37,300 bases of DNA, from assembly GCA_944329445.1 (NCBI GenBank), contig CALVIH010000008.1, forward strand, positions 1-37,300, read 5' to 3'. The position numbers were made by a program, and so were the translations under genes. This stretch comes from an uncultured Bacilli bacterium. GTDB taxonomy: Bacteria > Bacillota_I > Bacilli_A > RF39 > UBA660. The notes under the pieces were generated by a model. It worked only from the letters and a program-made list of their open reading frames with translations, did not search any database and was not told where the DNA came from. Of the stretch, positions 7,068 through 11,431 are shown piece after piece; the stretch's first letter is position 1, and each line of letters starts with the position of its first letter.

Positions 7068-7153
7068 CAATTTTAAAAAAAATAAAATTTTTTTAATACT
7101 TTTAGGGGAATTTTGAAATTTATGTCTAACTATAAACATGAGGAGGTGATAAG

Positions 7154-9181
7154 ATTAGTAAAAAATGTGTTGTGAATCAAAGGTCAGTTAACGATTGTGG
7201 GGTAGCATGTTTAACCGGTATTTTAAACTTCCATGGCATTAATGTTTCGTATGATGAGGTGAGAAGTAAAATAAAGCTAGAAAAGGAAGGAGTTAGTGCC
7301 TATGAAATAATTAAGGTAGCAAGAACTTATGGGCTTACAGGTAATGGTTACAAAAACTATGTTATTAGTAAAACAAATTCATTTCCCTTTATCGCTCATA
7401 TAATTAATAATAAAACTCAACATTTTGTCGTGGTAAGAAATCTTATTAAAGATACGTTATACGTGGATGATCCTTCCAAAGGAGAATTATGTATTAAAAT
7501 AGACGATTTTAATAAGATATATACTGGTATAGCAATCTTGTTTAAAAAAGAAGAACTAATAAATTTAAAGACGATAATTAATAAAAAGTACGTTATATTA
7601 ATATCGATGATTATATTATTTTTATCATTTTTAAACGTTTTTTATTCATATTGTTTATCTTACTTAGTTGAAAACTTTAAACGTTTAACTAACGTATTTC
7701 TAGTCATTATATTGTTTTTATTAATAGGTTTATTAAAGGAATTTATTAATTTCGTTAAAAATCGAATGCTACTTAAATATCAAATAAAAACTGATAAGTT
7801 GATTACAATCCCAAGTTTAAAGAAGATTATAAACCTTCCTCATAAGTTTTATCAGGAAAGATCGGTTGGAGAATTAATGGCTAAGATTAATGATCTATCT
7901 TACGTTAAGCAGATGTCGTTTTTGATAACTGAGGTTTTGTTTGTAAATGTAATAGTTATGTCTGTTTCCTTTATTTTTTTACTTTGTCTTAATAAGTATA
8001 TATTTATTTTTAACTTATTAATAGTCATATTCATATTCCTTTATAATAAACACTTCTATTTTAAAAACGCATACAAAAATTATGATTTACAAATCAAAAA
8101 CGAAAGTTTGAGCAAAACGATCGCGGGTGGAATAGAGTCGATTCTTAGTATTAAAAACCTGTGTAAGGAAAAGTTTTTGGAAAATAAGGTAACAACATCT
8201 TATAAAGAGACGATAAAAAGTTATAAAAGCTTAAACTTGTTATATCAAAACAAAGATCTGATTTTCAAGGTATTTAGTTTGGTTTCACTTGTTATATCAA
8301 TGACGTTAATAATTGGTAGTAATGGTACTGTTTCAGAACTACTTTTTATGACTTATTTAGCTTCTATAATTTATGATTCTCTTGATTCTGTTTGTGAACT
8401 TTTAGGTGTGTATACTGACTTTAAAGCTGCGTTTCTAAGGCTTAAAACGGTATTAAAAGAACCTGGTTCTAATTCTAGTTTTAAATTGATTAACATAGAT
8501 TGGGTAAGCTTTAAAAACCTAAGTTATAAAACAGAAGATAAAAGCATTTTTAAAAACGTTAATTTAACTTTAAAAAAGGGCGAGTTAGCCATGATAAATG
8601 GTCCTTCGGGAAGTGGTAAAACAACGCTTTTTAAGATCTTAACCGGGCAGGTTAATAATTTTAAAAATAAAGTTTTTATTAATGGTATGACGCTTAATGA
8701 TTTTGATGATGGTACCTTAAGGAAAAACATTACTTACGTTGATCAAAAAGTAAAGTTTTTAAACGATAGCATTATAGAAAACATAACCTTAGGCACGAAA
8801 TTAAACCTAAGACCATCTTTTAAAAAGTTGTTAAATGATTGTTTAAGAGTTAAAAACATTGGTTATGATGACGTGATTGATAATACCAACTCTAACTTAT
8901 CTGGAGGCGAGTTAAGTCTTATCTTAATTGCTCAAGCACTTAATAACGCGGGTTCCATGATAATCTTCGATGAAACAACAAGCAGTATGGACGCTCTATT
9001 AGAAAGAAAAGTTATTTTGGCAATAAAAAAAGATTACAAAGATAAGGTACTGGTTTTTATAAGTCATCGTAAATCAAACATGGACCTTTTTGATAAAATA
9101 TATAATTTTCCTGATAAAAAAATAAGACTTAAAAGGAGAACTAATGAAAGCATTAAAAGAAAAAGAATTAAAACAAATTAA
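7154..9181 (+). CDS. Peptidase-containing bacteriocin ABC transporter (C39 type)
   Basis: About 675 residues counted from an ATT start at 7154, chosen because the perfect AGGAGGTGAT site at 7141-7150 points there. The first conventional in-frame start, GTG 7172, has no ribosome site and would shorten the peptidase N-terminus. Residues 1-125 form a C39 cysteine peptidase: catalytic Cys15 in NDCGVACL, His90 in QHFVVV, Asp106 in VDDPSKG. Several membrane helices follow (about 145-390). The nucleotide-binding domain has Walker A GPSGSGKTT (483-491), signature LSGGE (582-586), Walker B MIIFDE and the H-loop FISH. Such exporters cut a double-glycine-type leader and secrete the mature peptide. No HlyD-like accessory protein is encoded nearby. 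Its 3' end overlaps the first peptide gene by 38 bases. Confidence 0.92.
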   Translation: MSKKCVVNQRSVNDCGVACLTGILNFHGINVSYDEVRSKIKLEKEGVSAYEIIKVARTYGLTGNGYKNYVISKTNSFPFIAHIINNKTQHFVVVRNLIKDTLYVDDPSKGELCIKIDDFNKIYTGIAILFKKEELINLKTIINKKYVILISMIILFLSFLNVFYSYCLSYLVENFKRLTNVFLVIILFLLIGLLKEFINFVKNRMLLKYQIKTDKLITIPSLKKIINLPHKFYQERSVGELMAKINDLSYVKQMSFLITEVLFVNVIVMSVSFIFLLCLNKYIFIFNLLIVIFIFLYNKHFYFKNAYKNYDLQIKNESLSKTIAGGIESILSIKNLCKEKFLENKVTTSYKETIKSYKSLNLLYQNKDLIFKVFSLVSLVISMTLIIGSNGTVSELLFMTYLASIIYDSLDSVCELLGVYTDFKAAFLRLKTVLKEPGSNSSFKLINIDWVSFKNLSYKTEDKSIFKNVNLTLKKGELAMINGPSGSGKTTLFKILTGQVNNFKNKVFINGMTLNDFDDGTLRKNITYVDQKVKFLNDSIIENITLGTKLNLRPSFKKLLNDCLRVKNIGYDDVIDNTNSNLSGGELSLILIAQALNNAGSMIIFDETTSSMDALLERKVILAIKKDYKDKVLVFISHRKSNMDLFDKIYNFPDKKIRLKRRTNESIKRKRIKTN

Positions 9182-9284
9182 AGCAGGAGCATTAAGTGGT
9201 TGGGCAATTGCCGGAATAATCGCTGGGATTACTTTCGTGGTTGGTATATTCGATGGTATTGCAAGGCCATTTAAGTGTAGGTAA
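9144..9284 (+). CDS. Putative bacteriocin precursor peptide 1
   Basis: 46 residues, ATG at 9144 with AAAAGGAG five bases upstream, nested in the end of the transporter gene. The N-terminus KALKEKELKQIKAGA has the amphipathic leader pattern (L, EL, I at set spacing) of peptides cut by C39 transporters. The processing pair is Ala-Gly instead of Gly-Gly. The predicted mature peptide, from Ala16, is about 31 residues, glycine- and isoleucine-rich and hydrophobic, with GxxxG motifs (GIIAG, GIFDG) and a basic end ARPFKCR with a single cysteine. This resembles one half of a two-peptide (class IIb) bacteriocin. Function is inferred from leader, size and context; the mature sequence is not one I recognise. 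Confidence 0.8.
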   Translation: MKALKEKELKQIKAGALSGWAIAGIIAGITFVVGIFDGIARPFKCR

Positions 9285-9298
9285 GAAAGGAGAGAAAA

Positions 9299-9466
9299 AT
9301 GATTTTAAGTACGAAAGAATTAAAAAGTATAAAGGCGGGTGCTGGTTTGTCAGCGACTTTAATTAACGCTTTAGTAAAAGGATTTACTTCGTTCATGGAC
9401 GTCGGAAGGTACCTTGGAAGTAGTATAAGAAGGTTATTTGGTGGTAGCGCTTGTCCACTAAAGTAA
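9299..9466 (+). CDS. Putative bacteriocin precursor peptide 2
   Basis: 55 residues, ATG at 9299 behind GAAAGGAG, 14 bases after peptide 1. The leader ILSTKELKSIKAGA repeats the KELKxIKAGA motif of peptide 1, so both should be cut by the same peptidase after Ala-Gly (residues 13-14). The predicted mature part of about 41 residues is amphipathic and cationic, with a GxxxG motif in VGRYLGSSIRRLFGG and a lone cysteine in the ending SACPLK. Together with peptide 1 it would make a two-component bacteriocin. A signalling role cannot be excluded, but no sensor kinase or regulator is encoded nearby. Confidence 0.8.
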   Translation: MILSTKELKSIKAGAGLSATLINALVKGFTSFMDVGRYLGSSIRRLFGGSACPLK

Positions 9467-9600
9467 AAAAAGCATTTAAAACCATATTATTTATACTTAT
9501 GTTTCCGGTGATGATAATGCTTTTAGGGTATGTAAGTGAGTTTGTTTTACAACTCGGAAGAATAGTAGGTACCATCATAAGAATAATAATGAATTTATAA
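9451..9600 (+). CDS. Small hydrophobic peptide, possible immunity protein
   Basis: 49 residues read from TTG 9451, which overlaps the end of peptide 2 by 16 bases in another frame; a weak GGTGG site lies six bases upstream. There is no KELKxIKAG leader. It has a basic start (STKVKKAFK), one membrane helix (TILFILMFPVMIMLLGYV) and an amphipathic end LGRIVGTIIRIIMNL. That end shares the spacing GRxxGxxIR with peptide 2 (GRYLGSSIR). Position after the two precursors and before the terminator suggests an immunity peptide, perhaps derived from peptide 2. It might instead be a third, leaderless peptide. An in-frame ATG at 9499 is an alternative start but has no ribosome site. Confidence 0.5.
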   Translation: MSTKVKKAFKTILFILMFPVMIMLLGYVSEFVLQLGRIVGTIIRIIMNL

Positions 9601-9637
9601 AAAAAGACCGGATTTTGAAAAAAATCTGTCTTTTTTT
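9601..9637 (+). terminator. Intrinsic terminator of the bacteriocin cassette
   Basis: Left arm AAAAAGAC-C-GGATTTT pairs with AAAATCT-GTCTTTTT with a one-base bulge, followed by a T7 run. Confidence 0.8.
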
Positions 9638-9659
9638 GTTATAAATGCGAAAAAACTTA

Positions 9660-9723: not shown

Positions 9724-9924
9724 ATGATAACTGTTCAAGTTAAAAATGGAAACGTTGATGGCGCACTTAAAAAGTTCAAACAAAGAGTAGCTAAAAGCGG
9801 TCTCCCTTCAGAAGTAAAAAAGAAACAAGCTTTTGATAAACCAGGAGTTCAAAGAAGAAACGCTAAGAAAGAAGCTATTAAGAACAGCCGTAAGGCAGCT
9901 AGGCGCGAAAGAAGAGATTCCTAG
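9724..9924 (+). CDS. rpsU: 30S ribosomal protein S21
   Basis: 66 residues. The start ITVQVKNGNVDGALKKFKQR and the strongly basic tail KKEAIKNSRKAARRERRD are those of bS21, a late-assembling small-subunit protein near the anti-Shine-Dalgarno region of 16S rRNA. Length is normal (57-71 in relatives). It has its own promoter and terminator. It opens the same gene order as in Bacillus (rpsU, yqfC, yqfD, ybeY, dgkA, era, recO, glyS). Confidence 0.95.
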   Translation: MITVQVKNGNVDGALKKFKQRVAKSGLPSEVKKKQAFDKPGVQRRNAKKEAIKNSRKAARRERRDS

Positions 9925-10014: not shown

Positions 10015-10266
10015 ATGAGATTAAAGAAAGTAATAGATGATTTTACAGAGTGTAATAATTTTGAGGTTAAAATAAAAAATAGAAAAGTAAGAATATATTA
10101 TTACGATAACATTGATAGTTTTACTTCAAATACAATTGTTGTATCTAAAAATAAAGAAGTAATAAAAGTCATCGGAAAGGGTCTGGTTATAGAAACGATG
10201 TTTCCAGAATACATGGTTATATCAGGAAACATTAATAAACTAGAGTTGGGTTATGTAAATGAATAG
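10015..10266 (+). CDS. yqfC: YqfC-family sporulation protein
   Basis: 83 residues from ATG 10015, with TTGGTGAT as a modest ribosome site. Sequence features match the YqfC/YabP family: a predicted beta-rich fold with NFEVKIKNRKVRIYYYDNI, then KEVIKVIGKGLVIETMFPEY near the end (the family pattern is a glycine-x-lysine/glycine turn followed by hydrophobic I-T-x-L/M). Bacillus yqfC is a sigma-E-controlled sporulation gene of poorly known role. It overlaps the next gene, yqfD, by 8 bases, as expected for the conserved yqfCD pair. Confidence 0.85.
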   Translation: MRLKKVIDDFTECNNFEVKIKNRKVRIYYYDNIDSFTSNTIVVSKNKEVIKVIGKGLVIETMFPEYMVISGNINKLELGYVNE

Positions 10267-11431
10267 TTATGTTAAAATAAGTATCACCGGTAGAAATCCT
10301 AGGCTATTTATTAAAAGGTATTTTTTTAATAAAATAAACTATAGTAATTATAAGGAAATTAATCATAAAAAAATACTTTTAAAAGTTGGTTATGAAGATT
10401 ACTTAAGTATTATAGATAAAAATACCATTTATGAAATAGATGTTGTAAAACTTTACGGACCAATTAAGTACTTAACTTTATTAAAAAATAATTTTACGTT
10501 ATTTATATCATTTTTGATAAGCGTTATCTTTTTGTTTTTTATTAGTAATATTTGTTTTTCTCTTGAAGTTGTTCATAATGACGAGGAAATAAGAGAGCTA
10601 GTGTTTACTGAGTTAAGGAAAAATGGTATAAAAAAGTTTAGTTTTATACCTAGTTTTAACGAAAGAAAGTCCGTAATTAGTAAGGTGGTAAACGAAAACA
10701 AAAACGAGTTAGAATGGATGGAAATAGAAAGGAAAGGAAGCAAGTTAATTGTTAAGGTAACCGAACGAAAAATAAACAAAGAAAAAGAAAGTGATGAGCC
10801 AAGGCACATAGTTGCTAAAAAAAGTGGGATAATAATAAGTATCGAAGCAGAAAACGGCGTTATTTTAAAGAAGAAAAATGATTATGTAGTAAAAGGCGAA
10901 ACGATAATATCAGGTGATGTTATAAAAGACGAAACGGTTAAGGGGCAGGTAAGAGCAAAGGGTACTATCTTCGCGGAGACCTGGTACATGGTAAACGTAT
11001 CATATCCGCTTAATTATAAAGAAGTAATATATTTAAACGACGTAAAAGACAACCTAATAATAACTTTTATGAATAAGGAGTTTTCACTAAGAAAGAATTA
11101 TGCCTCACTTCACTTAGAAAAGAAGTATGAGATTGTTAAAAGTAAGGTGTTTCCGTTTAGTATAAGGATAGAAAAGCAAAGAAAAACAAAGGTAGTAGAC
11201 CAAAAGTACACCCAAAAAGAAGCCATTTTAAAAGCCGAAGAAATAGCAGAAAAGAAAATAAAAAAGAAACTTAACAGTAAAGAGTACATAATAAGTAAAA
11301 AAACTTTGAACTTTACCGCGAATGATAGTAAAATAGAAGTGGATGTTTTCTTTAAGGTCTGCGAAGACATAACCGACTATAAAGAGGTCGATAAAAGTCT
11401 GTTGGAAAAGCAAGAGGAAGAAAACACGTAA
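10259..11431 (+). CDS. yqfD: Sporulation protein YqfD
   Basis: 390 residues, close to the family's usual length of about 395. A short soluble N-terminal domain (residues 1-75) precedes one strong membrane helix (TLFISFLISVIFLFFISNICF, about 81-101). The extracytoplasmic region has EVVHNDEEIRELVFTELRKN and ERKGSKLIVKVTER, followed by KKSGIIISIEAENGVILKKK, the typical YqfD core. YqfD is a mother-cell membrane protein expressed under sigma-E in Bacillus and needed for efficient sporulation. Translation is coupled to yqfC by overlap, and a VanZ-like gene follows after 11 bases. Confidence 0.92.
   Translation: MNSYVKISITGRNPRLFIKRYFFNKINYSNYKEINHKKILLKVGYEDYLSIIDKNTIYEIDVVKLYGPIKYLTLLKNNFTLFISFLISVIFLFFISNICFSLEVVHNDEEIRELVFTELRKNGIKKFSFIPSFNERKSVISKVVNENKNELEWMEIERKGSKLIVKVTERKINKEKESDEPRHIVAKKSGIIISIEAENGVILKKKNDYVVKGETIISGDVIKDETVKGQVRAKGTIFAETWYMVNVSYPLNYKEVIYLNDVKDNLIITFMNKEFSLRKNYASLHLEKKYEIVKSKVFPFSIRIEKQRKTKVVDQKYTQKEAILKAEEIAEKKIKKKLNSKEYIISKKTLNFTANDSKIEVDVFFKVCEDITDYKEVDKSLLEKQEEENT

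Follow-up and report, generated by a model that had tools for sequence, protein, structure and literature searches.

The window, the whole 37,300-nt stretch analysed here, belongs to contig 8 in a draft genome of 1.17 Mb, assigned to family UBA660 of order RF39. The small size of the genome, the lack of ketoacyl synthase in its family and a class that includes mycoplasma-like genomes fit RF39, an uncultured order of Bacilli that has been described as without fatty-acid synthesis and many other pathways (PMC6784871). The forward strand of the window carries a compact cassette (Table 1) between a lipid kinase gene, on the opposite strand, and rpsU: a peptidase-containing ABC exporter, two small precursor genes (p1 and p2), a third small membrane peptide gene (p3) and a terminator-like hairpin. 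All four genes are at the places given by the original prediction, which was made from the sequence alone. The 5′ part of p1 overlaps the 3′ end of the exporter gene. The start of p3 is a TTG within the end of p2, so the two are probably translationally coupled. The hairpin was not among the sites found by a consensus scan. Promoter-like sites from a sigma-70 scan were no commoner than in shuffled sequences, so no promoter is claimed. Downstream of rpsU, at window positions 10259-11431, this small genome encodes a homologue of the stage IV sporulation protein YqfD.

Table 1. Features of the cassette and its downstream neighbour (window positions)
Feature	Position	Strand	Basis or remarks
Shine-Dalgarno stretch GAGGAGGTGATAAG of the exporter gene	7140..7153	+	Sequence; kept in most of the closest congeners
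C39 peptidase-containing ABC exporter	7154..9181	+	Probable ATT start at 7154, next in-frame start GTG 7172; Pfam, catalytic residues
p1 precursor, 46 aa; leader MKALKEKELKQIKAG, predicted mature part ALSGWAIAGIIAGITFVVGIFDGIARPFKCR	9144..9284	+	Family A1; 56/60 genomes of the order; dN/dS 0.03-0.15
p2 precursor, 55 aa; leader MILSTKELKSIKAG, predicted mature part AGLSATLINALVKGFTSFMDVGRYLGSSIRRLFGGSACPLK	9299..9466	+	Family A2; 267/291 genomes of the family; dN/dS 0.03-0.14
p3, 49 aa; membrane peptide with no leader, similar to mature p2 (GRIVGTIIR); candidate for immunity	9451..9600	+	Family A3; profile match to p2
Terminator-like hairpin, A/T-rich stem and T run	9598..9638	+	-15 kcal/mol, z -5.5
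rpsU (ribosomal protein S21), neighbour outside the cassette	9724..9924	+	Pfam; kept downstream in the genus and many other genera

The exporter matches the Pfam domains Peptidase_C39 (E = 5e-32), ABC_membrane (1e-12) and ABC_tran (3e-23), so that a C39 domain with catalytic Cys, His and Asp is fused to ABC membrane and ATPase domains, the arrangement that marks peptidase-containing ABC transporters (PCATs). An alignment with 17 relatives shows no variation at Q9, C15, H90, D106 or the ATPase residues. In a search of PDB sequences the best solved match was PCAT1 (entry 4ry2; E = 1e-59); domain order and catalytic residues are those of PCAT1 and other such transporters, but the sequence is far removed from theirs. 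No NCBIfam cut-off was reached, the best model being NF045998 (Mbov_0121 family, 247 of the 500 bits required). This is the sole C39 protein found in the genome. Its start had been placed at GTG 7172; the ATT at 7154, preceded by a full Shine-Dalgarno sequence, is probably the true start.

A side observation concerns the same region (7122-7175). The exporter start appears to be non-AUG not only in the window (ATT) but also in three congeners, with ATA or ACG at that spot; each is preceded by GAGGAGGTGATAA and overlaps an out-of-frame ORF of 17 codons (MSNYKHEEVI...). In other congeners this ORF is in frame and forms the N-terminus of the exporter, so where it is out of frame, translation would either begin at a rare codon or involve a -1 shift.

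The leaders of p1 (KELKQIKAGA) and p2 (KELKSIKAGA) bear out the common motif KELKxIKAGA that had been noticed at first reading. They end in Ala-Gly in the window and in Gly-Gly in most relatives; since the alignment with the Gly-Gly-bearing relatives places the cleavage site after Ala-Gly, mature p1 would have 31 aa and mature p2 41 aa, which replaces the earlier range of 30-41 residues. Both mature peptides are cationic and hydrophobic (pI 9.5 for p1, 10.3 for p2). Each of the three small products has one GxxxG that is kept family-wide (GIFDG in p1, GRYLG in p2, GRIVG in p3), and among 82 loci with both p1 and p2 a motif of this type was found in 80 p1 and in every p2. The end of p1 (RPFKCR) keeps its Pro and Cys; in p2 the conserved residues are the Arg-Arg that follows the GxxxG and a Cys close to the C-terminal end. 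This near-end cysteine is present in 82/82 p1 and 81/82 p2, and is the sole Cys beyond residue 16 in 77 and 80 of them, respectively, which suggests the idea of a disulfide joining the two peptides. AlphaFold draws p2 as one helix spanning the mature part (mean pLDDT 75) and p3 as one helix along its whole length (pLDDT 93), but a single-chain helix is little proof in either case.

Neither mature peptide had been recognised at first, and searches of Pfam, NCBIfam, PHROGs, PADLOC and PDB sequences likewise returned for them nothing beyond leader-level or chance matches; the matches are to relatives. The exporter is thus of a known kind, while the peptides match no model. One natural variant could bear on the role of the cysteines: a locus in another genus (L094; genome G085, genus g66) has p1-like and p2-like genes in duplicate, arranged in tandem, and the conserved cysteines have been lost.

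Relatives were found through the exporter, which had a full-length match in 17/17 further species of the genus and in 18/18 further sampled genera of the family, with the same small genes in the DNA behind it. Profiles built from these relatives (A1 for p1, A2 for p2, A3 for p3) were then used for searching. The p2 profile detected 267/291 genomes of the family, 197/207 of those of good quality and 144/150 genera, nearly always in single copy, and p1 was found in 56/60 genomes of the order. In a sample of the class p2 was present in all 25 genomes of the family, and none of the 173 others had a full-length match; nor did a sample of the phylum yield one outside the family. The weak extra p2 matches were all in mycoplasma-like genomes and covered the leader and first mature residues only. 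The absence of p2 from about 5% of genomes is near what draft incompleteness would produce, and could be either true loss or a gap. Twenty p2-negative genomes were searched: most gave no match to the exporter's C39 part, the exporter was cut by a contig end in at least two, one (G191) had a whole exporter and a diverged p1, and in at least 12 cases p2 is retained by a sister species within the genus.

Of the 82 loci, 78 have p1 and p2 adjacent on the same strand and 80 have the exporter upstream; some 80 keep the order exporter-p1-p2. Where there was enough sequence, rpsU lay within 1.3 kb downstream in 35 of 50 loci, and every time in the genus. Exporter, peptide and S21 distances correlate with one another (Mantel r 0.41-0.56, with 0/300 permutations as high), which together with the shared locus order points to vertical inheritance of one locus. 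TBLASTN with p2 gave no match in plasmids and, in phages, one chance-level match within a tape measure gene (E = 0.03) that we rejected. By this sequence evidence there is no sign of mobile spread of p2.

Within the genus the mean identity is 74% for mature p1, 66% for mature p2, 43% for the exporter and 78% for S21, and across other genera it is 42% for each peptide versus 35% for the exporter. The mature peptides are therefore conserved above their exporter and nearer to a ribosomal protein. For eight close pairs dN/dS was 0.03-0.15 in p1 and p2, where computable, and 0.11-0.62 in p3, so all three small genes are translated and kept, p3 changing fastest. A test set beforehand had asked whether small ORFs and leaders are conserved next to homologous exporters; it was passed decisively, in the genus and about 60 other genera, and given these dN/dS values the cassette is not a chance arrangement.

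Most other genera have a further gene between exporter and p1. It encodes a membrane protein of about 140 aa (about 120-165 aa; L020-L026 and many of L050-L109) that has a single membrane helix at its N-terminus and a conserved basic tail. Pfam did not identify it; from its build we guess at a shortened HlyD-like protein. It had been noted that the cassette lacks an accessory protein. This holds for the window, but since most other genera have one, the absence is a property of the window's genus and not of the system.

The third membrane peptide of the original prediction is a membrane peptide of a more specific sort, a sequence mimic of mature p2. Profile comparison shows that p3 shares the GxxxGxxxR half of mature p2 (E = 1e-6 with the first alignments; E = 1e-8, score 37.2, with larger ones). 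The highest score among 200 column-shuffled p2 profiles was 13.8, a reversed profile reached 13.6, and p3 compared with p1 gave no match. Two independent searches agree: the p2 profile matches the neighbouring p3 of one genome (E = 1e-3), and the p3 profile weakly matches the neighbouring p2 in many congeners. p3 has no leader and consists of a lysine-rich N-terminus followed by a hydrophobic helix. It was recognised in 49 of the 82 loci and is usual in the genus; by synteny and whole-genome search, four congeners in which p1 and p2 are retained lack it.

From its sequence p3 looks like a leaderless mimic of mature p2, and it may possibly serve as an immunity decoy or antidote. Two-peptide immunity proteins of 42-55 aa exist and their mechanism has been termed a mystery (PMC6957408); it is therefore natural to read p3 as an antidote, a copy of one partner that competes for the other. 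The four congeners without p3 and its recognition at no more than 49 of the 82 loci speak against this role. Examples are CbnZ (42 aa), BrcI (53 aa), EnkIaz (52 aa) and AbpIM (55 aa) (PMC6957408); p3 is like them in size, hydrophobicity and place near the structural genes, and what sets it apart is its copying of the GxxxGxxxR half of p2. As p3 copies the proposed interaction face of p2, a decoy mechanism is directly testable with three short peptides. We know of no reported immunity peptide that copies this half of a partner.

The most likely reading of the cassette, to which we give a probability of about 55%, is that p1 and p2 form a secreted pair that permeabilises membranes, with self-protection by p3 where it is present. 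The C39 domain would remove the Gly-Gly-type leaders (Ala-Gly here) and the ABC core would export mature p1 and p2. Outside the cell the helical, cationic peptides would pair via GxxxG, with a possible contribution of their single C-terminal cysteines, then insert into the membranes of neighbours and make them leaky. p3 would be retained in the producer membrane, where it would present a p2-like GxxxGxxxR face and occupy p1; on this proposal no complete pair could form there. A likely benefit, though speculative, would be that nutrients or lipids set free in this way become available to cells with no fatty-acid synthesis of their own.

Much of this reading comes from the anatomy of known systems. 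Three features by which class IIb bacteriocins are recognised are present here: adjacent precursors with double-glycine-type leaders, a GxxxG-type motif in both mature peptides, as in known two-peptide bacteriocins (PMC6957408), and a dedicated C39 ABC transporter. Lactococcin G, plantaricin EF/JK and carnobacteriocin XY have the same adjacent double-glycine precursors and C39-ABC exporter, and class IIb systems also have cationic helical GxxxG peptides with a small membrane peptide behind them. The cassette departs from them in the near-invariant C-terminal cysteine of each peptide, in having no regulator and, in this genus, no accessory protein, and in being core and vertically inherited in a whole family. 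Known class IIb models did not reach their cut-offs (lactococcin G-beta, 12.7 of 37 bits; lactobin A/cerein 7B, 11.2 of 21.5 bits). The original proposal of a two-peptide, bacteriocin-type cassette with its own C39 transporter is partly supported: leaders, GxxxG motifs and exporter stand, and that the pair is a bacteriocin is inferred from the anatomy. As a rule, peptides of the bacteriocin type are accessory, have a patchy distribution, change fast and vary between strains, so family-wide core status and strongly conserved mature parts are unusual for them.

The part of the reading that concerns p3 has a competitor, somewhat unlikely in our view: p3 would not confer immunity but would be a third, leaderless component, or would inhibit premature pairing of p1 and p2 in the cell. 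Its likeness to mature p2, its faster evolution, its absence in some species and the overlap of its start with p2 would suit this. An exported third component is hard to reconcile with the missing leader, for which the C39 exporter should refuse p3, and a lysine-rich N-terminus before a hydrophobic helix is as in retained membrane peptides.

The unusual conservation is among the points for the main rival to the permeabilising pair, which we hold to be unlikely: that of a core physiological device. Here p1 and p2 would act in the producer's own envelope or in contacts between sister cells, with a housekeeping membrane job such as lipid uptake or envelope remodelling, and p3 would be a retained partner. 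The system is core in the family and nearly always single copy, with mature peptides conserved more like a ribosomal protein than like the exporter; p3 is dispensable in four congeners; and the lineage has no ketoacyl synthase (absent in 24/24 sampled family genomes). Against this alternative, GG leaders, two GxxxG peptides, a C39 exporter and a small membrane peptide make up the architecture of a two-peptide bacteriocin, and some genomes apparently do without the set, though draft gaps could explain these.

Very unlikely is a role of p1 and/or p2 as double-glycine pheromones sensed by a kinase in the membrane. In its favour, pheromones too can leave through C39 exporters, the p1 leader is weakly ComC-like (E = 0.16 and 0.07) and most genomes of the genus have GHKL kinases. 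Against it, signals do not need two partner peptides, and no kinase or regulator was found in the cassette, as first noted, or beside it. Signalling is made less likely by the genome's best GHKL kinase, which sits in an agr locus of its own together with AgrB and a LytTR regulator, and by two genomes (G017 and G022) that keep p2 and have no such kinase.

The two-peptide system is found in about 95% of good genomes and about 150 genera, which indicates a function not easily lost, in reduced genomes without ketoacyl synthase. A broader view, put forward tentatively and at less than even odds, is that of an ancient, vertically inherited peptide pair on which a whole genome-reduced family depends: a bacteriocin apparatus turned core, leaking the nutrients or lipids of neighbours or acting in the own envelope, with the p3 mimic protecting.

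We found no literature joining UBA660 with bacteriocins; papers that mention both RF39 and bacteriocin, judged by title and abstract, are mainly feeding or community studies, and none describes such a system. According to a commentary, a large survey has listed class II precursors in the hundreds of thousands (PMC12648078), so single sequences from the lineage may already be included. As far as our literature and database searches go, neither the core status across the family, nor the paired terminal cysteines, nor a p3 resembling p2 has been described.

Double-glycine-leader proteins of another kind recur in many mycoplasma-like genomes (L137-L145, L090 and L091; families f4 and f15). They resemble p2 in the leader and in about the first 20 residues of the mature part (SGALLNG versus SGTLINA), but they are 70-130 aa long and, unlike p2, have neither GxxxGxxxRR nor a terminal cysteine. 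After the SGALLNG-like start there is often a G-x-x-S/F-x-W/x-D element. No C39 exporter was recognised within the few kilobases examined around them. In the genome of the window itself, the agr locus mentioned above (L134, 2156-5003; G000, contig 1) looks complete, with AgrB, GHKL kinase and LytTR regulator, despite genome reduction.
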